From Phycisphaerae bacterium (GTDB lineage: Bacteria > Planctomycetota > Phycisphaerae > UBA1845), in assembly GCA_029260055.1 (NCBI GenBank), contig JAJDDX010000424.1, positions 1 through 64,000 on the forward strand: a stretch of DNA of 64,000 nt. The letters are read 5' to 3'. A program made the translations under genes and the position numbers. Below are positions 48,768 to 61,967 of the stretch, in pieces (position 1 is the stretch's first letter; the number at the start of each line of letters is the position of its first letter). The notes under the pieces were generated by a model that saw only the letters and a list, made by a program, of their open reading frames with translations, did not search any database and had not been told where the DNA came from.

Positions 48768-49703
48768 TCAGCCATCTAGTCGCCGAATAGCTCGTCCCCG
48801 GACCTTGGCCGCGGAAAGGAGCATGAGGGCGAGGATCACGATTCCCCACTGAGACACTGCCGGGACTGGCTCGACCTGGCATTCGTCAGGAACGCCGTCG
48901 CCGTTATCGTCGGCGCTTTCTCCTGTTGCGATGTCGCATTCGTCAGGCGTGCCGTTGGCCTGGCAGTCGTGGCTCATGCCTTGGGTGATGTCCTGGTCGT
49001 CAGGAATGCGGTTGCCGTTGCAGTCGTCGGCGCCGACATGCAGGGTCAACGTCGCCGACCAGTCCAACGGTATGCTTTGGTCGTCGTCATCCAAGAGGAA
49101 TGTATGGTCGGGGTTCTGCAGGAGGCCGAGGGCAAAAGAACCGCCGGCGTTTTCGCCCACCTCCAGCCACATGGTTCCCAGATACTTGCGGTTGCCGTCA
49201 TCCGGAACGCCCCACGGGGCGCTGAGCAGGGTCCCGGCGATTCCGTAGTTCCCAAGAAGTGCATCGCCTGACGTGCAGTCGGTGGCCCAGATTGCCAGGC
49301 GGCCGACGAACAGGTGGCCGGGTCGATGGTTCGGCTGTTCGATATACAGGGAGCCGCCGCATTCGCACAGGCTGCCGTCGCAGGCCGATGCGCCGAAACA
49401 ATCCTCGTCCTCAGTGCAGGGTAGCTCCGCGAGTTTGATCAGTCCGGTTGTGCCGCTCGCAAGGGACGTACCGTCCAGGCGAAGCTGATACGTCTTGACC
49501 AAGGCAGGCGCCCAGTCCTGAAGGTAGAACTCGATCTTCAACGAGTCGCCCGGTTGTACGACGAGATCTGCGGACGGCAAGTTCGCTGTCGAACCGTTGA
49601 TCTCGACGACCTCCATGGTCATGACTGCGGGCAGCGCCAGCGCGGTCGCCGAGAAGACTCCGATCAGACTTCCGGTGAGGCACAAAGTTGCGGCGTGTTT
49701 CAT
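48768..49703 (-). CDS. Secreted Cys-rich repeat-tailed protein, tandem copy A
   Basis: From the ATG at 49703 the 311-residue protein has a signal peptide (MKHAATLC... ending 'TALALP'), a beta-rich domain opening 'AVMTMEVVEINGST' with six Cys in the middle ('CTEDEDCFGASACDGSLCEC'), then 'GADDCNGNRIPDDQDITQGM', two Asp/Cys repeats ('DCQANGTPDECDI') and a C-terminal anchor 'VPAVSQWGIVILALMLLSAA' with a basic end. The tail resembles IPTL/PEP-CTERM-type sorting signals. The beta domain looks like a cohesin-like or carbohydrate-binding sandwich ('LPSADLVVQPGDSLKIEFYL'). It is likely surface-exposed. It is one of three tandem paralogues, with a fourth fused into 51940-55842. Confidence 0.75.
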   Translation of the reverse strand: MKHAATLCLTGSLIGVFSATALALPAVMTMEVVEINGSTANLPSADLVVQPGDSLKIEFYLQDWAPALVKTYQLRLDGTSLASGTTGLIKLAELPCTEDEDCFGASACDGSLCECGGSLYIEQPNHRPGHLFVGRLAIWATDCTSGDALLGNYGIAGTLLSAPWGVPDDGNRKYLGTMWLEVGENAGGSFALGLLQNPDHTFLLDDDDQSIPLDWSATLTLHVGADDCNGNRIPDDQDITQGMSHDCQANGTPDECDIATGESADDNGDGVPDECQVEPVPAVSQWGIVILALMLLSAAKVRGRAIRRLDG

Positions 49704-49808: not shown

Positions 49809-50744
49809 TCAGCCGCAGGCTCGTCGAGGCGCCCGTCTTCGAATCTTCGCCGCAGTGAGAATCAAGAGGGCAAGGATGGCGAGCCCCCATTGCGAGATGG
49901 CTGGAACCGGTACGGCTTGGCATTCATCAGGAACACCATTGGCGTCATCGTCGGCGCTTTCTCCTGTTGCGATGTCGCACTCATCCGGGACGGCGTTGGC
50001 CTGGCAGTCGTCACTCGTGCCTTGGGCGATGTCCTGGTCGTCGGGCATGCGGTTGCCGTTGCAGTCGTCGGCGCCGACGCGCAGCGTCAGCGTGGCCGAA
50101 CGGTCCAACGGCAGGTTCAGGTAGTCTACATCCTCGAGGAACACTTCGTAGGGTATTTGAAGGAGGCGGAGCGTGAAGTCGCCGCCGGCGTCCTCACTCA
50201 CCGTCAGGAGTAACGTTCCCATGTGCTTGGGGATGCCTTGATCCGGAACGCCCGACAGCGGATGAAACAGCGTTCCGGCCAGTGCGTAGCTTCCTTCGAG
50301 TCCCCACGATGATGTGCAGTCGGCTGCGACAATGGCCTCGCGGTCGGCGAACACGTGGTCGGGGCGGCTGCTCGGCGCTTCCACATATGCTGAGCCGTAG
50401 CAACTGCACAGGTCGCCGTCGCATGTCGCGCCCTCGAAGCAGTCGCCGTCCGTCGCGCACGGCAATTCCGTCAGTGTGATCGCGCCGCTAGTGCCGCTCG
50501 CAAGTGAGGTACCGTCCAGGCGCATCTGGTAGGTAAGAAGCAACTCGGGCGCCCAACCCTGTAGATACATTTCGAGCTTCAAGGAGTCACCCGGGTTCAC
50601 GACGAGATCGCTCGACGGTAGACCCGCGGTCGAGCCGTTGACCTCGACGACTTCCATGGTCACGACGGCCGGCAGAGCCATCGCCGTTGCCGAGAAGAAA
50701 CCGATCAGGCTTCCGCAGAGCCACAAGGTCAAAGCGTGTTTCAT
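49809..50744 (-). CDS. Secreted Cys-rich repeat-tailed protein, tandem copy B
   Basis: The ATG at 50744 matches the MKHA start of copy A and gives 311 residues; the open frame above it overlaps copy C's tail and is not coding. It has a signal peptide, the 'AVVTMEVVEVNGSTAGLPSS' opening, a Cys block 'CATDGDCFEGATCDGDLCSC', 'GADDCNGNRMPDDQDIAQGT', two Asp/Cys repeats and the anchor 'VPAISQWGLAILALLILTAA'. Point differences from copies A and C are spread through the gene, so the duplication is not recent. Secretion and surface anchoring are inferred from the signal and tail; biochemical function is unknown. Confidence 0.75.
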   Translation of the reverse strand: MKHALTLWLCGSLIGFFSATAMALPAVVTMEVVEVNGSTAGLPSSDLVVNPGDSLKLEMYLQGWAPELLLTYQMRLDGTSLASGTSGAITLTELPCATDGDCFEGATCDGDLCSCYGSAYVEAPSSRPDHVFADREAIVAADCTSSWGLEGSYALAGTLFHPLSGVPDQGIPKHMGTLLLTVSEDAGGDFTLRLLQIPYEVFLEDVDYLNLPLDRSATLTLRVGADDCNGNRMPDDQDIAQGTSDDCQANAVPDECDIATGESADDDANGVPDECQAVPVPAISQWGLAILALLILTAAKIRRRAPRRACG

Positions 50745-50847: not shown

Positions 50848-51837
50848 TCAGCCGTCGGCCCGTCGAAATGCCGTGCCTCTAGTTTTCGCCGCGATAAGGA
50901 GCAAGAGGGCAAGGACGGCGAGTCCCCACGCGGAGACAGCCGGCACGGGCTCGAACTGGCACTCATCAGGAATGCCGTCGCCGTTGTGGTCCACGCTGCT
51001 CCCTTGTACGAGATCGCACTCGTCAGGGACGGCGTTCAGCTGACAGTCTTCACTCGCACCCTGCGTGAGGTCGCACTCATCCGGGACGGCGTTGGCCTGG
51101 CAGTCCTCACTCGTGCCTTGGGCGATGTCCTGGTCGTCAGGGATGCGGTTGCCGTTGCAGTCGTCGGCGCCGACATGCAGGGTCAACGTCGTCGACCAGT
51201 CTAGCGGAATGAGGTAGTCGTTTTCGTCCGCGACGAATGTCTGGTCGGCATTCTGCAGGAGGCCGAGCGTAAAACCGCCGCTGGCGTTTCCGCTCACCGT
51301 AAGCAACATGGTTCCCATGTACGTTCGTGTTCCCGGGTCCGGGATCCCCGGTATGCCGAACGCGATTCCGCCGAAGCCGTAGTTGCCGGCCAAGGCGAGC
51401 ATTGAAGTGCAGTCGACGGCCAAGATGGCGTCTTGTCCGAAGAACACGTGATCGGGCCGGCTGCCGGGTGGCTCGATGTACAAGGAACTCCAACAGTGGC
51501 ACAAGTTACCGTCGCACGCCGATTCGCCGTAACAGTCACCGTCGGCGGTGCACGGCAGTTCCGCCAGAGAGATCGTTCCGGTCGTGCCACTCGCGAGAGA
51601 TGCGCCGTCGAGGCGCAATTGATAGTAGAAGAGCAGGCCAGGCGCCCAATCCTGAAGATAGAATTCGACTTTCAACAAGTCGCCCGGGTTCACGACGAGA
51701 TCGGCGGACGGCAAACCCGTTGTCGAGCCGTTGATATCGACGACTTCCATGGTCATGACGGCCGGCAGAGCCAGGGTGGCCGTCGAAAACAACGCGATCA
51801 GGCCTCCGCTGAGGCATGAGGTTTTGGCGTGTTTCAT
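50848..51837 (-). CDS. Secreted Cys-rich repeat-tailed protein, tandem copy C
   Basis: The ATG at 51837 gives 329 residues, 18 more than copies A and B, because it has an extra Asp/Cys repeat unit ('DCQLNAVPDECDLVQGSS'). Otherwise the plan is the same: signal peptide, 'AVMTMEVVDINGSTTGLPSA', Cys block 'CTADGDCYGESACDGNLCHC', 'GADDCNGNRIPDDQDIAQGT', repeats and the 'VPAVSAWGLAVLALLLLIAA' tail. The one-unit difference shows the acidic repeats expand and contract. The Asp-rich loops may bind calcium, as in thrombospondin type-3 or dockerin repeats; this is inference. Confidence 0.75.
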   Translation of the reverse strand: MKHAKTSCLSGGLIALFSTATLALPAVMTMEVVDINGSTTGLPSADLVVNPGDLLKVEFYLQDWAPGLLFYYQLRLDGASLASGTTGTISLAELPCTADGDCYGESACDGNLCHCWSSLYIEPPGSRPDHVFFGQDAILAVDCTSMLALAGNYGFGGIAFGIPGIPDPGTRTYMGTMLLTVSGNASGGFTLGLLQNADQTFVADENDYLIPLDWSTTLTLHVGADDCNGNRIPDDQDIAQGTSEDCQANAVPDECDLTQGASEDCQLNAVPDECDLVQGSSVDHNGDGIPDECQFEPVPAVSAWGLAVLALLLLIAAKTRGTAFRRADG

Positions 51838-51939: not shown

Positions 51940-54900
51940 TCAGGCGTGGGCTCGTCGACACGTCGCGCTTCTGGTTTTCGCCGCTATTGAGAGCAACAGG
52001 GCGAGGACGATTAGTCCCCACTGGGAGACGGCCGGGACGGACACGGTTTGGCATTCATCCGGGATGCCGTCGCCATCGTCATCGCCACTGCTACCTGATG
52101 CGATGTCGCATTCGTCCGGTGTGCCGTTGGCCTGGCAGTCCTCGCTCGCACCCTGCGTGATGTCGCACTCATCCGGCACGCCGTTCGCCTGGCAGTCGTG
52201 GCTCGTGCCTTGGGCGATGTCCTGATCGTCGGGGATGCGGTTGCCGTTGCAGTCGTTGGCGCCGACGCGCAGGGTCAACGTCGCCGACCAGTCCAACGGT
52301 ATGATCTGGTCATCAGAGTCCACGAGGAATGTTTGATCGGGATCTTGCATGAGGCCGAGCGTGAAAGTGCCGTCGGCGTTTTCGTCCACCGTAAGGAACA
52401 TGGTTCCTATGTATTTGGGCGTGCCTTGATCCGGTACGCCCCACGGCGGAGTAAGCAGCGTCCCACCTACGAGGTAGCTCCCTTGCTGTGCGAGGTTTGA
52501 GGTACAGTCGCCGACAATGATGGCGTCGCGTCCGAAGAACAGGTGGTCGGGTCGACTATCCGTCGCTTCCACATACACGGACCCGCTGCAGTCGCACAGG
52601 TTGCCGTCGCATACCGATTCGCCGTAACAGTCGCCGTCCGTGGTGCAGGGCAGCTCGGCGAGCAGGATTGCGCCGGTCCCGCTGCTTGTCAGTGACGCAC
52701 CATCCAGGCGCAACTGGTGCGTATTGGCCAACAGGGGCGCCCAATCCTGAAGATAGAATTCGACTTTCAACAAGTCGCCCTGATTCGCGACGAGGTCGTC
52801 CGACGGCAGGCCCGCCGCCGAGCCGTTGACCTCGACGACTTCCATGGTCATGACGGCCGGGGTCGGCTCGATTTGGCATTCATCGGGAACGCCATCGCCG
52901 TTGTCGTCGGTGCTGCTGCCTTGTGCGATGTCGCACTCATCCGGTACGCCGTTCGCCTGGCAGTCGTCGCTGCTGCCTTGGGCGATGTCGCACTCGTCAG
53001 GCACGTCGTTTAGCTGGCAGTCCTCGCTCGTACCCTGTGCGATGTCCTGGTCATCGGGGATGCCGTTGGGCTGACAGTCCACCACGAGGCCGCTGACGTG
53101 AAGTTCGCCGGTGAACGCATCGCCGTCTCGCGCCCCGACGCGGATCAGGTATGTCCTTTGCGCCTCGACGTCGATGGTGCTGGAGGAGCCGACGCCGCAA
53201 CTGCCATCGAGCGCGTCATCGTTGCAGGTGATGAGTCGATCTCCCGTCGCGGGACAGTCGCCACCGTCGTATACGAGTAGGATGGTGTCGCCCTGGGGTA
53301 CCGAGCAGGTATCGAACGTGACGGACCCTGCTACGGGTGCCGTGTACTCGAACCAGACATCGCCCGTCAAGTCGACCGCGCACGCCTCGCCCGGGCACTG
53401 CGCCGTCGCTCCGTTCAGATCGAAGTTCGACGATGTTGCGGCGATGGTTGCGGTGTCACAGGTATTGTTGACTGGGACGTCGCCCGGCGGGCTGCAGGGG
53501 GCCGTGGCCGGTGACGTGACAGTGAGGCGGTATTCTCCGGCAGCGTACTCCGCTTTCGCCCCCAAAAGGACGTAGTAAGTCTCGCCGATGTTCAGGTCGT
53601 AGAGACAGATCGCTGCTTGTCCGTCTTGGCAACTGATCCAGTCGCTGTCGTCGTTGCAGCCGATCGGCACGAGTGAGTTGCATGCGGCCTGTTCGTCGGT
53701 GTGGTCCGTCGCTCGGAAGACCTGAAGCAGCGCGTCCCATGCCGGCAAGTTGTTGGCCCCGCAGGTGTCGACTCGGGCGCTCGCCTCCGAGGCGGTGAAC
53801 TTGGCCCAGACGCCGCCGAACCCTTGAGTTCCCGCCCCGGCTCGGTGGCAACAAAAGCCTTCACTTGCGTCGGTTGTGGCACCTCTGTTATCAAGCGTTG
53901 TGGCGCCGTTTGCCTCGCAGCTCTGGCCTGCGGGGCAGTCCGTGTCGTCGAAGCACTGATCGAGGCTGACCGAGCATTCGTTGAGCATGTATGCACCGCT
54001 GTCCGGGGTCGGACCGAAGCACGTGTCGTTACCGACCGGGAGGTCCGTGCATACGGCGACCGCGCGGGTGGCACACGTGCTGTCCCATTCCCAGATGCAG
54101 CAGAACGGGTCCATATCGCAGACTGTGTCGCAGCAGGTCGGGACGTTGCAGCCCACGGTGCCGTTCGCTAGGTCGCACGATCCCTCCGCGAATCGGCATA
54201 TCCAACTGATGCAGTCCTGTTGTCCCTGGCCGCAGAATTGCCCCGGCTGCCACACGGCGGCGTGGCCGTCGTCGTCCAGGTGTGATTCGCATGTCGTTTC
54301 ATCGAGATCGACGCACGTTTCGCCGAACGGAGAATTCGGCGGTGTGCAGCAGGCCGCGGTGCCGCAGGTCGGGTCGAACGACACGCCAAGATCGGTGCAG
54401 ATTTGGGTCCGGGTGCAGGTCTCGCCGACGGGGCAATCCGCGTCGACAACACACGCATCGTCGGTGAGGCTGCATGCTATCGGGCAGTCGGCATCGACGG
54501 TGCATTCGTCGCTGGTGATGCTGCACGTGTTGGGGCACTTTGCGCCCGACTCAAATCGTACCGTGGACCCCTGGCAGGCGATCTCCTGGACCTCGCGACA
54601 GAATTCTCGCGGCGTGCCCGCTCCCGGCGTAGACAGGTCGCAACATGCACCCGTTGGCGAATTGCCAAGGCAGCGAACGGTGATGGCGAATCCCGACCAC
54701 GGGTTACCACCGAACCAGTACAAGTTGCAGTCCGATCCGTCTTGCAGCCCGAAGAAGTCGTCGGTGTAGCCGAGTGCGGCCTGCCCCGAGAATATGGAGC
54801 TTGCCGCTCTATCGAACTTGTAGGCTACCCACAGGGGCATCGCGCCGGTGTTCAGTGCGACGCCGCCGGGAAAGTCGAAGCGAGCGAATGCGGGTGAATC

Positions 54901-55842
54901 GTCAGCGATGAACGCTGCGGTTCCTTGGGTTCCTTCTATCACGAAGGCATCACCGCAGAAGCGCCGGAGTTCAGCCGTTACGGTGACGGTGCCGCCGCCG
55001 GTGGCGACGCCGCCGATGTCGTAGCTGCTCAGGACGCAGTTATCGATGATCAGTTCGACATCGTCCACGATCCACCAGTTCGGAGGGAAGACCCACCGCA
55101 TTCCGCCTAGATTGGCGTTGTAGTAAGCGAGGAACTCTCGGTCGAAGGGCGGTTCGCAGTAGACCTGGGTGTGGAAGCCGGCGTAGAGCGTCGTGCCGGC
55201 GAAGCTGGCGCTGCAGGGTTCGAACGGGATGTCATAGATGTTCGACGTGAAGCCAACCTCGGCGGGGGTACCAACGACCCAGCCGGGGCCCGCGCGGTCG
55301 AACGAGACACCGAGCCACACCGTATTGTCAATGGCCACGGGGCTGGCCGACAGGTCAAGCAGTACGGAATGAAGTCCGTCATCGGCGATCGCCAGGGAGC
55401 CGTCGGTGCCTGGCAGGACCACGCCGCCGCCGTTCGGGCAGCCGTCGTACAGCGCGAAGCTGACGGTGAAACCGGGGCCGGTGCCGTCGCCGCCGCCGGC
55501 GACGAGGAACTCGTATGCCTTGACCGGGCAGCCGTTCACCGCCTCGGTGTGCAGATCGTCCGCCACCAGGGTGTCCGGCGGAAGCTGCAGGAAGACGTCC
55601 GGCGGCGGTGAATTGGCGTAGACCGGATCGTCAAGTATCAGGCCTCCCGCCGAGCCGGCCGAGCCCGTTGTCGCGTTGTAGTAATGTCTTTGAGGTTCGA
55701 GTCCCGGTGGGATCGAACGGAGCACAGCCGCAGAAGCCTGTGCTTGGTTTGCCGGGCTGCCGTTGTCCGCGGTGATGTCTCCGTTGGCTGCGAGGCCCGC
55801 CGTACCGATGACCCAAATCAGCGCACTTGTGACCGAAACCAT
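51940..55842 (-). CDS. Giant secreted Cys-rich surface protein fused to a fourth family copy
   Basis: From the ATG at 55842, nine bases after GGAGAG, the protein has 1300 residues. After a signal peptide come beta-sandwich regions ('GGLILDDPVYANSPPPDVFL', 'GTLYAGFHTQVYCEPPFDRE'), a long Cys-rich stretch with 'CTVDADCPIACSLTDDACVV'-type units, two segments like bacterial pre-peptidase domains ('ETYYVLLGAKAEYAAGEYRL', 'GSVTFDTCSVPQGDTILLVY') and three Asp/Cys repeats ending 'VPDECQIEPTPAV'. There the sequence switches to 'MTMEVVEVNGSAAGLPSDDL' and continues as a full paralogue of copies A-C with its own repeats and SQWGL tail. A natural protein of this type would end in the tail right after 'EPTPAV', so this looks like a gene fusion. 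Confidence 0.8.
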   Translation of the reverse strand: MVSVTSALIWVIGTAGLAANGDITADNGSPANQAQASAAVLRSIPPGLEPQRHYYNATTGSAGSAGGLILDDPVYANSPPPDVFLQLPPDTLVADDLHTEAVNGCPVKAYEFLVAGGGDGTGPGFTVSFALYDGCPNGGGVVLPGTDGSLAIADDGLHSVLLDLSASPVAIDNTVWLGVSFDRAGPGWVVGTPAEVGFTSNIYDIPFEPCSASFAGTTLYAGFHTQVYCEPPFDREFLAYYNANLGGMRWVFPPNWWIVDDVELIIDNCVLSSYDIGGVATGGGTVTVTAELRRFCGDAFVIEGTQGTAAFIADDSPAFARFDFPGGVALNTGAMPLWVAYKFDRAASSIFSGQAALGYTDDFFGLQDGSDCNLYWFGGNPWSGFAITVRCLGNSPTGACCDLSTPGAGTPREFCREVQEIACQGSTVRFESGAKCPNTCSITSDECTVDADCPIACSLTDDACVVDADCPVGETCTRTQICTDLGVSFDPTCGTAACCTPPNSPFGETCVDLDETTCESHLDDDGHAAVWQPGQFCGQGQQDCISWICRFAEGSCDLANGTVGCNVPTCCDTVCDMDPFCCIWEWDSTCATRAVAVCTDLPVGNDTCFGPTPDSGAYMLNECSVSLDQCFDDTDCPAGQSCEANGATTLDNRGATTDASEGFCCHRAGAGTQGFGGVWAKFTASEASARVDTCGANNLPAWDALLQVFRATDHTDEQAACNSLVPIGCNDDSDWISCQDGQAAICLYDLNIGETYYVLLGAKAEYAAGEYRLTVTSPATAPCSPPGDVPVNNTCDTATIAATSSNFDLNGATAQCPGEACAVDLTGDVWFEYTAPVAGSVTFDTCSVPQGDTILLVYDGGDCPATGDRLITCNDDALDGSCGVGSSSTIDVEAQRTYLIRVGARDGDAFTGELHVSGLVVDCQPNGIPDDQDIAQGTSEDCQLNDVPDECDIAQGSSDDCQANGVPDECDIAQGSSTDDNGDGVPDECQIEPTPAVMTMEVVEVNGSAAGLPSDDLVANQGDLLKVEFYLQDWAPLLANTHQLRLDGASLTSSGTGAILLAELPCTTDGDCYGESVCDGNLCDCSGSVYVEATDSRPDHLFFGRDAIIVGDCTSNLAQQGSYLVGGTLLTPPWGVPDQGTPKYIGTMFLTVDENADGTFTLGLMQDPDQTFLVDSDDQIIPLDWSATLTLRVGANDCNGNRIPDDQDIAQGTSHDCQANGVPDECDITQGASEDCQANGTPDECDIASGSSGDDDGDGIPDECQTVSVPAVSQWGLIVLALLLSIAAKTRSATCRRAHA

Positions 55843-56145
55843 GGGCTTCTCTCCGTGGTGCACCTGCACCTTCCTCCGTTAAGTATCTGTATGGTACGAA
55901 CGCCGATCTGAATGAACCGCGATCACTCAGGTACGTGCTGCAGCTTCGGGCCCACCCCAGGAATGCCCCTTAGAACAAGAGGTAACGTGGACGATCCCCA
56001 CCGCGACCTGCGATTATACCGTGTCGGCATTCGGCAGGTCAAGTCCAAACCCGGACTTGCAGGCCCCTGTTCGGCGCACTGTGGGATCGGGGCCACGTCT
56101 GGGGTATCAGGAGGTCGGTGCGGGCTCTTTGCCGCCTATTCAGGG
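55843..56145. other. Intergenic region of about 300 bases
   Basis: It lies between the start of the giant surface-protein gene and the stop of the next leftward gene. No gene is seen. The promoter of the giant gene should be here; none could be assigned with confidence. Confidence 0.45.
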
Positions 56146-59100
56146 CTACTTCCGGGATGCCGTTCGCTTGTCGACCGGGCAGATCACTCGGAAGCCGACG
56201 TTGAATACGGGCTGCCAGTCGGGGTAGTGCAGTCGGAATGCGGAGCGGCAGCGTTTCGGGCGGTCTCGCCAGGATCCACCGCGGACGACGCGCTCACCGT
56301 TGGCCGCATTGTTGTTGCGGTCATCGTCGGCGTAGGGGTACGGCTGGTAGGTGGACTGTGTCCACTCGGCCACGTTCCCGTGCATGTCGTGCAGTCCCCA
56401 GGCATTTGGCTGAAACGTGCCAACGTTCGCTACGACTCTGTGGCCGTCGTCGAAGCGGGCGTCCTTGGGTAAGTAGTCGGAGCGCGGGTCGGGGTCTTTG
56501 ACCGGTTGGGGGTTCACGCCCTGCACCACGAGCTTGCTGGTCGATGCGTCCGCCATGTTCGCGAGCTTGGAGAAGTCCGTGTCGAGGCCGCCATAGCTCA
56601 ATCGCGTAGCCGTGCCGGCGCGGGCTGCGTATTCCCATTGGGCTTCCGTCGGGAGAGCGAACGACTCGCCCGTCTCTTTCGAGAGCCACTGGCAGAACGC
56701 TCTGGCCTGACGCCAGGTGACGCGGATGACGGGCTGGTCAGGCAGGTTGGCCGGATAGCCGGGCGTCGTGTGGTCTTTCCATCGCTGGTCGTAGTAGCCG
56801 CTGTCGTGTTCTGCATCAAAGCGGATGAATTGCCGGTTGGTCACTTCCAGTGTGCCCATCCAGAAGGGTTCGTCGATGGTCACGGCGCTTGTCGGTGCTT
56901 CGTCGGCGTCTCCGTACTCATCCCCCATGACATACTGCCCGGCCGGTATGAGCACCAGGTCCATGGTCACGCCATCGCCGAGGTCGAGTGTTCGTCGTGT
57001 GGCGGGGCCGGCTGCCTGTTGCCGGCGCAGGGCTTCGTCGGCGTCGAAGGGCCAGCCGTTGCATTGCACGGCTGCTGCCGGTTTCCTGTTGACCGGCGCG
57101 GGTGTGACCGGCTCGGCCTTGGGCGTGTCAATCCGTACGATCGCCTCGGGATCATCCTCGATGTTTGCGAAAAGCTTGCGGTAGCGAAGGCGCATCGCAT
57201 AGGACTTTTCGAATCCGCGCGAGCCCACATGCTCGGTCCACGTGCCGTGGTCCGGGACGTTGAAGTCGATCCACGTGATGAGGCGATCCCATTCCACCTG
57301 GCTGAGCTGCACGTTGTGGTGACCCTTGCGGAGCATTTGAACGAGTTCGCTCGTGTTGGCGCGGAATTCGGCCGGGCGCAACAGATGATAGTCGCTCTCG
57401 GGTCCGGGGCGGCGCACGTAGGGGTGCAATTCGAGATAGCTCTTGGTGAACCCGCCCCAGCCGCGAGCGTTGTCGGCGAAGTTGGGAAGGGCGGGCTCGT
57501 CGTCACGCGGGTTGCCGTCGTGGCACGCGACACACTTTCGGTCGAGCACGGGCTGAACCTCGCGCGTGAAGCTGAAACCGCGTGTCGGTCCGTGCCACGG
57601 CGCGATCTGACGTGGTCGATAGGCGGTGGCGACCGTCCGTCGATTCGGAACGGTGGTGTTCGGTGCCTCGTGGCAGCCGACGCACGAGAGCATCTCACCC
57701 GGCATCGCGGTGAACCAACTGCGCATGAGTTGCAGCGCCTCGCCGCGATCGTTGATCGGTTGGACAGCGAGCGGCGTATTCGCCGGAACGGTGAACAGTG
57801 CCGATCCGTCGGCCTCGACCGGGACCGTGCCGAGGATGCGCTTCACATCCCAGCCGCCTTCCACCGCTGCGTGTTGGTGGCCGCCGATTTCGTTGTAGCC
57901 GTAGTGCCATTCGATGACGCGCAGCGCCTTGATGTCGCCGCGCGGTACACCTGCGAGGCCGGGGCCGTTGTAGACGTCGGCCATGTAGACGGTCGCATCG
58001 GTGCGGTCGGGCCGGACCCTGTCGGGAATGACGGGCGGGCGCTCGCGCTTGACGAGCGGCACCGGTTCGAGCAGCGCCTGGCCGCGCTCTTCGTGGAGCA
58101 GGACCATGTTGTCGAAGACGTCGACGAGATAGATTCCCCAGTGGCTATCCGGCGCGGGCTTGCACGAGACCAGGAAGTACTTTTCGCTGAGCGGCCACGG
58201 TTGGAGGAACTTCGGCCACGAGTCGTCGACGAGTTGATCGACGATGATCGGTTCGACCTTCTTGCCGCGGCCCGGGATGCGCTGAACGACGCCGTCGGCC
58301 TCGTGCGTGCCTTTTGCGGTGTCCAGGACGATCAACTCTCCCATGCGGGGAACGCCATGATGGCCGGAGACGACGGTTACGAGTTTTGATGGATGGCCGG
58401 GGATCGGTCGCGAGTAGAAGATCGAGTTGGGCCAATAGGAGTTCGACCCGTAGACGGGCATCTGGCTTGTGCCGTCGGGGTTCATGCGCATGAGCAGCCG
58501 CGTGAAGTAGTGTGGCGTGTCGGTGTATTCCCACCGGGCGAAGAGGACTCCGCCGTCGGGCAGCACGGTCGGGTGCCAGTTGTGATCCTGGTCGAAACAG
58601 AGCTGGCGGACGTTTTTCCCGTCATCACCCATGATGTAGAGGTTACTGACGGCGTCGGCGCCGCCGACGCAGGGGACGCCCTGGCACACCGCGGCGGAGG
58701 CGAAGACGATGCGGCCATCCGGCAGATAGCAGGCGTCGTAGTTGTCGGTTTCGGTGATGGGGCCGCTGGTGACTTGGCGCAGGTTGCCGCCGTCGATACC
58801 GATCTCGAACACCTGCCAGCGATGATCGTCATCGAGGGATGAGAACAGCAAGCGGTCGGCGTCGAAGTGGAGGTCGACATCGCCTACGAAGACATTCCGC
58901 TCGGGTTTGTAGAGCGTGTCGAGTTGCGGGCGATCGCGAAAGGAGGACATGCGGCAGATGGCGTCGTCGTAGCCGGTTCGCGGGAGTGCACAATTGCCTT
59001 GCCAGTTCTGCGGCAGGCCGGTTCGTGGTCCGGTGTTGGCTCGTCTCACGATGAGTAGCTCGTCGAAGTCGAGCAGCGGGTTGGCTAGAAGCACCTTGCG

Positions 59101-60096
59101 CTGGATTGCGATGATGCGCTCGGCACGATCGAGGACCTCGTCGGTCCCCTGTTCGAGTTCGGCTCGGACGGCGGCGGCCTTGGCTTCGATACCCTCGAGT
59201 TGACGGCGGTAGTCGGCTGCTCCGGCATATCGATCGCCGAAGGACTCGGTCAGGTCGGCGGCTGCGAGCCGCAGCGCTTCCGCATCGAACAAGCGCATCT
59301 GAACTCTCGCTCTGGCGAGCCGATCGCGCCGTAAGCGTGCCTTGTCGAAGAGCGTGATCCACTGCGCGTCTTGGATGGGTTTCTGATCGCCGACGAGCTG
59401 TGCAAGCCGTGTGCGCATCGGTTTTGCGGCGGCGCCGATCTGATCGAGCAAGCCGGAGACGATCCTACCTGCGTGCCGCAGATCATCGGCCGGCGTCGCA
59501 TACGTCGCGTCTTCCGTAAGCGGCTTGAACGACGAATGGGGTGACGTCGTGCTCTGCGTGGCGAACTTGTTCAGGGCGATGTTGGTGTCCGGGGTGCCGG
59601 TGCCGAAGATTTGCACTTCGTCGAGGTGGAACATCGTTTCTTCACGAAGCCAAAGACGCACGTAGCGGGCTGATTCACCGTCGAGCGCAACGGTCAATGG
59701 CTCGCCCTTTTCGTGGCCATAGAACTCCGAGCCGTCGTGACGGTAGACCTCATTCCATGTGTTGCCATCGTCGGAGAGGTGTACGGTGATGGTGCGGGCA
59801 CGCTCCCAGAGACCGACGCGGTTGAAGATGACGATGCGGTCGAGCGGGTCCGATTCGGCAAGGTCCACCTGCCACCAGGGGGCGAGCTCCTTGGACGTGT
59901 GGAATGCGAAGCCGCCGTCGATCACGCCGTCGACACCCCCGGCTGCGTCGCGGGAGGGGTCCTTCTCGTATGCCTTGCGTATCGCGTGGGTCCATGCGGC
60001 GCGTGCGTCGGCGCTCGGGGCATTCTGCGCGGTGGCGATGCCGGTTGTAGCCAGGATCAACAATGTCGTAAGCTTGGTAATGGCTCTCATGGTCAT
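56146..60096 (-). CDS. Secreted dihaem c-type protein, HzsA-like, with discoidin and FGE-sulfatase domains
   Basis: The 1316-residue protein has a signal peptide (ending ATAQ), an F5/8-type discoidin domain (about 30-165: 'GGFAFHTSKELAPWWQVDLA', 'HLDEVQIFG'), a helical linker, a TolB-like propeller (about 360-700: 'VFEIGIDGGNLRQVTSGPIT', 'PTVLPDGGVLFARWEYTDTP'), and a region with two c-haem sites CVGCH (805-809) and CVACH (855-859). This block resembles the alpha subunit of hydrazine synthase. From about 1040 a formylglycine-generating-enzyme-like domain follows ('VLIPAGQYVMGDEYGDADEA', 'LPTEAQWEYAARAGTATRLS', 'DMHGNVAEWTQSTYQP', 'RVVRGGSW'). Planctomycetes carry many such proteins outside anammox. 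Electron transfer or oxidation of an unknown substrate outside the cell is likely. Confidence 0.82.
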   Translation of the reverse strand: MTMRAITKLTTLLILATTGIATAQNAPSADARAAWTHAIRKAYEKDPSRDAAGGVDGVIDGGFAFHTSKELAPWWQVDLAESDPLDRIVIFNRVGLWERARTITVHLSDDGNTWNEVYRHDGSEFYGHEKGEPLTVALDGESARYVRLWLREETMFHLDEVQIFGTGTPDTNIALNKFATQSTTSPHSSFKPLTEDATYATPADDLRHAGRIVSGLLDQIGAAAKPMRTRLAQLVGDQKPIQDAQWITLFDKARLRRDRLARARVQMRLFDAEALRLAAADLTESFGDRYAGAADYRRQLEGIEAKAAAVRAELEQGTDEVLDRAERIIAIQRKVLLANPLLDFDELLIVRRANTGPRTGLPQNWQGNCALPRTGYDDAICRMSSFRDRPQLDTLYKPERNVFVGDVDLHFDADRLLFSSLDDDHRWQVFEIGIDGGNLRQVTSGPITETDNYDACYLPDGRIVFASAAVCQGVPCVGGADAVSNLYIMGDDGKNVRQLCFDQDHNWHPTVLPDGGVLFARWEYTDTPHYFTRLLMRMNPDGTSQMPVYGSNSYWPNSIFYSRPIPGHPSKLVTVVSGHHGVPRMGELIVLDTAKGTHEADGVVQRIPGRGKKVEPIIVDQLVDDSWPKFLQPWPLSEKYFLVSCKPAPDSHWGIYLVDVFDNMVLLHEERGQALLEPVPLVKRERPPVIPDRVRPDRTDATVYMADVYNGPGLAGVPRGDIKALRVIEWHYGYNEIGGHQHAAVEGGWDVKRILGTVPVEADGSALFTVPANTPLAVQPINDRGEALQLMRSWFTAMPGEMLSCVGCHEAPNTTVPNRRTVATAYRPRQIAPWHGPTRGFSFTREVQPVLDRKCVACHDGNPRDDEPALPNFADNARGWGGFTKSYLELHPYVRRPGPESDYHLLRPAEFRANTSELVQMLRKGHHNVQLSQVEWDRLITWIDFNVPDHGTWTEHVGSRGFEKSYAMRLRYRKLFANIEDDPEAIVRIDTPKAEPVTPAPVNRKPAAAVQCNGWPFDADEALRRQQAAGPATRRTLDLGDGVTMDLVLIPAGQYVMGDEYGDADEAPTSAVTIDEPFWMGTLEVTNRQFIRFDAEHDSGYYDQRWKDHTTPGYPANLPDQPVIRVTWRQARAFCQWLSKETGESFALPTEAQWEYAARAGTATRLSYGGLDTDFSKLANMADASTSKLVVQGVNPQPVKDPDPRSDYLPKDARFDDGHRVVANVGTFQPNAWGLHDMHGNVAEWTQSTYQPYPYADDDRNNNAANGERVVRGGSWRDRPKRCRSAFRLHYPDWQPVFNVGFRVICPVDKRTASRK

Positions 60097-60149: not shown

Positions 60150-61967
60150 CTACAAAGCGCGCAGATACGCGATCAGGTCTTCAAACTGTGGCTCGGTCAG
60201 GTGCGATGTAATGCCGTGTCGGTCGTCCTTGTTGCATCCGAAAAGGACATCACGCAGTTTCGCGGCCGAGCCGTCGTGCAAGTAAGGGGCGGTTCGCCAC
60301 AGCTCCGCGAGCGTCGGCGTGTCGAACGTTTCGGTCCGGTCGAGTTTGCCGCGCGTGCCCACATCATATTGTTTGAGATCAGTATACAACGGTGCGGGGT
60401 GGCAGCGCGCGCAACCTGTGGTCTCCTGCTCGAACACCTCGCGACCGCGCTGAATCTGTGCGGCGAGCGGGCCGGTGTCGCCGGCGAAGGGGCTCTTCAC
60501 CGGTTCGAGCGAGCGCAGGTAGGCGCGGACATCTTCGAGATCGGCGGTACTGATCTGCTGGAACGCGATGTGCGTAAACCCGGCTGCGGAGGCCACTTCC
60601 ATCGATGCACGCGCGCCGCGCGACATAACCGGCGGCGTCTTGTGGCTCCATACGAGGGAGCGTACGTTCTTGGGATTGCCGAGTCCGTCGTTGAGCAGGT
60701 CCCAGTTCATACCGTCCGCGCGCGTATCGGGATGGCACGTCGCGCAGCTAAGCCATGTTTGTTTGGAGTATGTCGCGTCGTGGAAGATCCGTTCGCCGCG
60801 CCGTTCGGCATCGGGTTCGGGTTGGTTTTGGAGCGTCACGACGGTGCGCAGGGCGGCGTTGTGTGCATCCAGCAGAAGCACCGTGCCCGAAAAGTACATC
60901 GCGACAGCAAGCGTCTTTCCATCAGGCGAGACGGCCAAGCCACGCGGCCCTTTGCCCGGCAAAGGCGTTCGCCGAATCGCGCCGGCACGGGAGAGCGCCG
61001 CTATGTCGTCTTCCAATCCCTTGCGTTTGTCTGCGAGCAGCGCCGATAGGCCGGGGAGGTCGATGGTCGCGAGCTGGTGCGTGCCCGAGAGGGTCACCCA
61101 CAGCCGGCTTCCGTCGGGTGCGACGGCGACGCCCCACGGGTCGGCTGCGCCCTCGAGCAGGTAGTCGAGCAGTACCGTCCCCAGGCGTCGGTGCGACTTC
61201 AAGTCGATCACACTCAGTGCGTTCGTGTTGACCCAGCCGCGCTCGATCTGCGTGGTCGGTAGGTTGGTACGGCCGAGCGTATGTACGACGTACGCCCGCC
61301 TACCATCCGGGTCGATGGCGACGCCGCGTCCGCAAGACGAGCCGGACGGGAGACGAATGTGGGCGAGTTCGGCACGTAGTTCGAGGTCGACCAAGGTGAC
61401 GACGGCCGATTGGCCTGGCCTATCCGCACGACCTTGGGGAATCAGGTGGCTGACGACCGCAAGCGACTCGTCCGGTGAGATCGCCACCGCGAACGGCTGG
61501 CGCGACGTGGGGACGACCGTTCTTCGTACGGTGCTCCCGAGCTTCGCCACGGTGACGCCGTCTCTCGCATAGTCGGCGGCGACGAGCATGTTATGGTTCG
61601 GGGCGAATGCGATCCCTCGCAACCACAAGCCCGCTTCGAATCGGCGCGTGACCGAACCTTTGTCCGCGTCGATGTCGGCGATCGTGCCGACGCGAGATTC
61701 CGCCACGTACAGGTGCGAACCGTCGGGAGCCCACGTGATGCCGGCGGGGCGGTCATCCACTGCGCACTCGTGCAGCACGTTCGCTCCAGCGACGCCGATC
61801 AGTGTTACGACGCCGGCTGTGTGGTCCGAGACGGCGAGCATGGCGCCGTCCGGCGAGAAAGCCAGATCGATCGGGGAGCGGTAGGGGGGATCGGCCCATG
61901 CCGAGGTGCCCGCGCACAATACGCAGGCCATAAGAGCGGCACATCGACGGGTGCGGGCGTCCGGCAT
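60150..61967 (-). CDS. Secreted dihaem cytochrome with N-terminal beta-propeller
   Basis: The 605-residue protein has a signal peptide (ending SAWAD). Residues about 30-390 are a YVTN/SMP-type propeller ('IDLAFSPDGAMLAVSDHTAG', 'GVAVAPDGSRLWVTLSGTHQ', 'GLAVSPDGKTLAVAMYFSGT'). The C-terminal third is like dihaem cytochrome-c peroxidases, with haem sites CATCH (408-412) and CARCH (519-523) and the 'RTETFDTPTLAELWRTAPYL' segment that precedes the second-haem Met/His region in MauG/CCP proteins. It may reduce peroxide or pass electrons to the HzsA-like partner, whose gene begins 53 bases downstream on the same strand; the two may be co-transcribed. Confidence 0.84.
   Translation of the reverse strand: MPDARTRRCAALMACVLCAGTSAWADPPYRSPIDLAFSPDGAMLAVSDHTAGVVTLIGVAGANVLHECAVDDRPAGITWAPDGSHLYVAESRVGTIADIDADKGSVTRRFEAGLWLRGIAFAPNHNMLVAADYARDGVTVAKLGSTVRRTVVPTSRQPFAVAISPDESLAVVSHLIPQGRADRPGQSAVVTLVDLELRAELAHIRLPSGSSCGRGVAIDPDGRRAYVVHTLGRTNLPTTQIERGWVNTNALSVIDLKSHRRLGTVLLDYLLEGAADPWGVAVAPDGSRLWVTLSGTHQLATIDLPGLSALLADKRKGLEDDIAALSRAGAIRRTPLPGKGPRGLAVSPDGKTLAVAMYFSGTVLLLDAHNAALRTVVTLQNQPEPDAERRGERIFHDATYSKQTWLSCATCHPDTRADGMNWDLLNDGLGNPKNVRSLVWSHKTPPVMSRGARASMEVASAAGFTHIAFQQISTADLEDVRAYLRSLEPVKSPFAGDTGPLAAQIQRGREVFEQETTGCARCHPAPLYTDLKQYDVGTRGKLDRTETFDTPTLAELWRTAPYLHDGSAAKLRDVLFGCNKDDRHGITSHLTEPQFEDLIAYLRAL

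Follow-up and report, generated by a model that had tools for sequence, protein, structure and literature searches.

An apparent in-frame seam between a truncated sorting tail and a predicted cohesin-like module in a giant planctomycete surface protein

The locus raises the question of how a giant exported protein came to carry, within a single open frame, a long body of one family and a C-terminal part resembling the small genes that lie beside it, and what such a combination could mean for the cell surface. The window, the whole stretch of 64,000 nucleotides that was analysed, belongs to contig C362 of a Phycisphaerae draft genome (7.6 Mb, 500 contigs, 4.84% contamination). The giant frame has no internal stop and extends over 51940-55869 if an alternative GTG start at 55869 is used. 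Downstream and on the same strand lie three tandem genes, copies A-C, each with a cohesin-like domain of about 200 residues. A sequence-only reading had proposed that the giant is fused in frame to a neighbouring paralogue at a 'PAV' motif, through a deletion between two tandem genes that removed one tail and one signal peptide. The features needed to follow the argument are given below, the signal peptides of the giant and of copies A-C having been judged by eye only.

51940..55842, minus strand: the giant, an exported protein with 1300 aa when read from the ATG, open frame
53080..55842, minus strand: N body, residues 1 to about 920 including the signal peptide; paralogues in the same genome are 45-62% identical
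52861..53079, minus strand: repeat segment R1, four DxNxNGxPDxCD-type repeats plus a putative sorting-tail stub 'CQIEPT', of the local A-C family type; copy C is the best match genome-wide
52852..52860, minus strand: junction CCGGCCGTC, encoding Pro-Ala-Val, common to tail and post-signal-peptide contexts
52255..52860, minus strand: fused module D, whose predicted cohesin fold is intact from the first strand on (AlphaFold, Foldseek, VIA-align)
52036..52254, minus strand: repeat segment R2, four repeats
51940..52038, minus strand: IPTL-CTERM type sorting tail of the giant, with motif VPAVSQWG, membrane helix and basic end (PF18203, TIGR04174)
52027..52035, minus strand: CCGGCCGTC inside the giant's own tail, a proxy for the lost left-hand parent
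50848..51837, minus strand: copy C, with signal peptide, cohesin-like module, repeats and IPTL tail
51757..51765, minus strand: CCGGCCGTC behind the signal peptide of copy C, a proxy for the lost right-hand parent
49809..50744, minus strand: copy B, architecture as copy C
48768..49703, minus strand: copy A, architecture as copy C; IPTL score under both cutoffs

The junction reads TGCCAAATCGAGCCGACC-CCGGCCGTC-ATGACCATGGAAGTCGTC, with nine shared bases at 52852-52860. When its flanks are aligned to all contexts of the array, the left one shares 32-36 of 45 bases with the four tails but only 8-11 of 45 with the signal peptides, whereas the right one shares 31-33 of 36 bases with the mature starts of copies A-C and 12-14 of 36 with the tails; the nine bases in the middle are compatible with both classes. 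The right-hand 22-mer occurs four times in the window at up to three mismatches (0 in 100 shuffles), and the left-hand 26-mer is unique genome-wide, even allowing three mismatches. The proposed chimeric seam is borne out, with a switch confined to 52852-52860 and a match on each side, and so is the proposal that a tail and a signal peptide were lost. It is the DNA of both flanks that is convincing for a seam; the three residues PAV alone would not be, and they were rejected as evidence of fusion, because unrelated domains, too, can be preceded by ...DEC and then 'PA' with a hydrophobic residue. A candidate for a second fusion of the same type, on contig C14 (DECQGRPMPAARFHIDG), was likewise rejected: the next domain there stands behind repeats, in an FG-GAP-like protein, and there is no sign of a lost tail.

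The PAV codons stand in identical phase in the tail and post-signal-peptide contexts, so that a deletion joining them would be in frame whatever its length, and the claim that the frame was retained at the fusion holds as well. In the present array, the distances from a tail PAV to the PAV of the next signal peptide are 270, 271 and 273 bp. The string CCGGCCGTC is the longest one common to the giant's tail and the signal-peptide stretch of copy C, but about 7% of composition shuffles of these two stretches share a block of at least 9 bp, and the length of the microhomology was therefore rejected as proof of mechanism. That length is unremarkable; it is compatible with a microhomology deletion and is no proof of one. 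The same figures bear on an assembly artefact, in which two genes would have been misjoined during short-read metagenome assembly. The draft state and contamination of the genome and the repetitive array speak for such a misjoin, which is nevertheless very unlikely: assemblers need overlaps far longer than the 9 bp shared here, the left 26-mer has no second place in the genome, and the joint is precisely in frame.

On the protein level, the 76 residues ahead of the seam are 76% identical to the repeats and tail start of copy C, ungapped into PAV, which is the best match in the whole genome. R1 matches the giant's own second repeat block as well as copy C; the matches to copies A and B rank behind these (66-71% over 59 residues), and those to other contigs are lower still. 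The motif CQ(I/V/F)EPxPAV is common to the giant's seam and to the tails of copies A and C. Tail-like matches number more than 100 in this genome, and in nearly all inspected tails the motif lies about 31 residues from the stop, a spacing expected of C-terminal sorting signals (PMC1569441). The left side of the seam can therefore be read, from these sequences, as a truncated sorting tail.

The intact tail of the giant scores 23.0 bits against PF18203 (cutoff 20.8) and 21.2 against TIGR04174 (cutoff 20.5); copies C and B exceed the PF18203 cutoff only. Its membrane helix falls at model residues 359-382, and the giant thus has the motif, membrane helix, basic end and signal peptide of an IPTL-CTERM substrate. 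The number of tail-like matches and their distance from the stop are as in PEP-CTERM/exosortase sorting (PMC1569441) and its IPTL-CTERM variant, whereas the sorting enzyme is at present only presumed, since a search of the same genome for an XrtH exosortase gave five matches, the best of them (83.4 bits) below the cutoff of 86. The giant would be exported via its N-terminal signal and probably anchored through its IPTL-type tail, as the substrate of an exosortase.

On the right side of the seam, PAV stands immediately behind the signal peptide in copies A-C, and the same holds for a 48%-identical paralogue with a single domain on contig C276 (ALAIPAVFEMEVV). Relatives that carry the same domain internally, behind repeats, have DEC and then the domain without PAV, for example ...DECELA|TMALVPV. 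The PAV of the giant would thus be a remnant of a mature N-terminus, and module D is best read as derived from a separate secreted protein. These observations also bear on ordinary domain shuffling, by which recombination between repeats would have set a cohesin-like module behind a repeat block, the PAV overlap being a coincidence of linkers. In the family, proteins with a module between repeats are frequent (subtilase-like and triple-module ones among them), and 'PA' plus a hydrophobic residue after DEC is found ahead of other domains as well. Shuffling is nonetheless an improbable explanation: the repeat-module relatives have the module straight after DEC, both flanks here fit two specific parental contexts in DNA with the switch inside 9 bp, and repeat recombination would leave tail and signal peptide in place.

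A deletion ending at PAV would also suit the structure of the fused domain. A model of residues 916-1300, built with AlphaFold from a 29-sequence alignment, has pLDDT mostly above 90 over D, and the first strand of D starts at PAV, so that the seam leaves the domain whole. The best PDB matches of D in Foldseek are cohesins (E 1e-7); in VIA-align, the match to 6kgc_A has Z 14.4 over 142 residues with rmsd 2.9, and cohesins occupy the top 45 or so rows, at a sequence identity to D of merely 6-17%. The model shows the nine-strand jelly-roll sandwich of the cohesin fold. The Pfam cohesin model PF00963 has no match on D, on copies A-C or on their relatives, and C362 is not among its own-genome matches; since that model does not find D, the module is called cohesin-like. 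D and copies A-C have a predicted cohesin fold in common, each with an IPTL-CTERM tail at the end. This fold, which the sequence-only reading could not reveal, changes the meaning of the fusion. Among the four modules dN is 0.20-0.25 and dS 0.65-0.90 (dN/dS about 0.26-0.37), indicating that D is under purifying selection on average.

The label 'paralogue' stood for only part of the giant: residues from about 922 to 1300 belong to the A-C family, whereas residues 1-920 are unrelated to it and belong to another family, whose members have Ig-like and dockerin-like ends. Thirteen paralogues of this N body were found in the same genome, on contigs C30, C183 (an array of eight), C317 (two), C460 and C408. 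Twelve of them end in a 190-residue module composed of an Ig-like domain and two EF-hand loops (DVDGSRASDPSDII...DADRSGVTDPSDII), and the one on C408 ends in a different EF-hand pair. Among complete relatives, 13 distinct proteins have the Ig-like plus dockerin-like end and three have another EF-hand pair, counts from which relatives matching only part of the N body were left out, and which come from searches that scored a limited number of candidates per genome. No cohesin-like module was found in the 13 paralogues or in the complete relatives seen. The giant has no match to the Ig-like plus dockerin-like end and no RQPH motif, and it alone, among the N-body members seen, lacks the dockerin-like end and carries a cohesin-like module. 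Near residue 920 the giant gradually ceases to resemble the N-body paralogues and comes to resemble copy C closely, which points to a second seam at that place.

The designation dockerin-like rests on several comparisons. In the C30 module, helices stand behind two EF-hand-like loops, with equivalents in alignment A2, and the modelled end (pLDDT 88) superposes on dockerins over 56-66 residues with rmsd 1.7-2.8 and Z 5.9-6.9. The Pfam dockerin model PF00404 gives weak matches in 8 of 16 members (best E 1.4e-4), with C30 under the cutoff and one C317 paralogue over it in a whole-genome search, and the best PDB sequence match of a profile of these ends is the CipA X-dockerin (E 0.011). The Ig-like half resembles CopC and S-layer Ig domains (Z 8-9), a common sandwich from which no kinship was concluded.

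Considering both seams, the giant is fairly probably a chimera of at least two steps, in which a dockerin-family body was joined to the end of a cohesin-like gene and a PAV-to-PAV deletion took place, the order of the steps being left free. In one step, a dockerin-bearing surface-protein gene would lose its Ig-like plus dockerin-like end and, at a point within the DxNxNGxPDxCD repeats around residue 920, be linked to the repeats and tail of an A-C-type cohesin-like gene. In the other, a deletion from the tail PAV codons to those that came just after the signal peptide in a fourth tandem copy, some 270 bp by the present spacing, would take out tail, stop, intergenic stretch and signal peptide at once; the frame would be preserved by the common codon phase, and the cut, just ahead of the first strand, would leave the cohesin-like domain whole. 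This tail-to-signal-peptide deletion seems the best mechanism for the PAV seam. The resulting protein has a single signal peptide, body, cohesin-like module and sorting tail.

The opposite direction, with the fused gene ancestral and its neighbours split off from it, acquiring signal peptides and tails, is hardly likely at all. It draws on a scan of the contigs of GTDB 220 for the pattern of the giant, which gave 25 pattern matches and no confirmed relative that could polarise the event. Against it, this genome has further single cohesin-like proteins with signal peptides, on C276 and C459, and N-termini point to such proteins in other genera too; moreover, the N-body family members seen never carry the cohesin-like module. 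Synteny was followed through the neighbouring HZS-alpha/FGE gene, whose relatives lie in Phycisphaerae, other Planctomycetota, Hydrogenedentota and similar groups; none of the 80 loci (up to 61% identity) had a cohesin-like module or the giant nearby.

The chimeric origin would have a functional side. The body of the giant would be held covalently on a tail-anchored cohesin-like module, a task that in the paralogues the dockerin-like plug would perform, and the same module could additionally recruit other dockerin-bearing proteins. The giant may be anchored at the surface, and D may bind dockerins. That the fusion is a covalent short-circuit of a cohesin-dockerin pair, in which a body normally attached by its plug is fused directly to the surface cohesin-like socket, is a tentative idea. 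It is possible, though doubtful, that the fusion is real and D a cohesin-fold beta-sandwich that binds no dockerin and serves, say, as a structural spacer, and that the dockerin-like end was lost for unrelated reasons; the missing Pfam match and the low identity of D to cohesins agree with this. Other evidence argues against a non-binding D. Pfam models give 39 dockerin matches in this genome and, over the cutoff, six or more cohesins, so both halves of a cohesin-dockerin system are present; the proteins on C276 and C459 have a D-type module followed by a dockerin-like end, a domain order like that of adaptors; and the fold match is high, with cohesins filling the top rows.

The locus shares with the cellulosomes (type I and II cohesin-dockerin pairs and the X-dockerin of Clostridium thermocellum CipA) the predicted cohesin fold of D and copies A-C, the dockerin-like module with two EF-hands that follows an Ig-like domain in the N-body paralogues, and the weak profile match mentioned above. 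It differs in that D has no sequence-level cohesin match, no cellulases were noticed here, the tail is of IPTL-CTERM type, and the giant's body and cohesin-like module form one chain. A 'planctosome' of freshwater planctomycetes has been proposed from domain content, with cohesin and dockerin modules and thrombospondin-type repeats (PMC6461901). It resembles the present case in these planctomycete modules, in the thrombospondin-type-3-like calcium repeats and in having anchor and adaptor proteins, although the published anchor is a lamin-tail domain and the system binds peptidases, whereas an IPTL-CTERM tail would serve as the anchor here and the bodies have no known function. Homologues differing in their C-terminal sorting signal, that is, signal exchange, have been described (PMC3237569) and likewise have one body family with varied C-terminal ends, but here a dockerin-like plug is swapped for a cohesin-like socket with its anchor. 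In a limited search of the open-access literature, no report of a fusion between a dockerin-family body and a cohesin-type anchor came up, and nothing relevant on tandem fusion by microhomology was found in the literature searched.

In the N-body family, dockerin-like ends occur in 25 inspected proteins, and one gene has a surface cohesin-like module instead. Gene fusions often flag partners (the 'Rosetta stone' argument), and if the short-circuit reading is true, this one would indicate which of the at least 39 dockerin-like modules have the A-C type cohesins as their cognate partners. The fusion would provide a concrete pairing in a non-cellulosomal planctomycete cohesin-dockerin system, systems hitherto proposed from domain content (PMC6461901). 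It also suggests how surface proteins of bacteria can become very large: Pro-Ala-Val codons are shared in phase by the tail motif and the start behind the signal peptide, so that a deletion between neighbouring genes would yield a longer, in-frame and well-folded protein. The giant's own tail and the signal-peptide context of the next gene, copy C, share the same nine bases today, and the fusion could therefore recur.

In one relative (genome G031, contig C48, locus L015), a single protein carries three cohesin-like modules in tandem with DEC repeats between them, a layout like that of a scaffoldin. The loci L016, L019, L021, L023, L025 and L026, from other genera, encode a subtilisin-like protease followed by DEC repeats and then by a cohesin-like module of the type found in the giant. 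In the draft genome that contains the giant (G000), contigs C459 (L007) and C276 (L008) each encode a single secreted protein in which a cohesin-like module is joined to a dockerin-like end, as would be expected of an adaptor scaffoldin. Multiple DEC-repeat matches are also spread out over contig C14 (L134, 1-11500), where the one protein that was read resembles FG-GAP proteins and contains long DEC repeats.

Paralogues of the giant's N body form an array in G000, each ending in an Ig-like plus dockerin-like module:

C183, 6.8-30.5 kb (L003, L004), all same strand: eight N-body paralogues in tandem.

The IPTL-type tail has more than 100 matches across the whole G000 genome, lying about 31 residues from the stop in nearly all those inspected, and the genome holds 4-5 XrtH-like exosortase candidates, with scores below the family cutoff.

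Two adjoining genes of the window encode multidomain proteins:

56146-60096: 1316-aa protein with F5/8-type discoidin, hydrazine-synthase-alpha middle and FGE-sulfatase domains.
60150-61967: protein with both a beta-propeller and a MauG-like cytochrome c peroxidase part.

About 80 relatives of the 1316-aa protein were retained, spanning PVC and neighbouring phyla.
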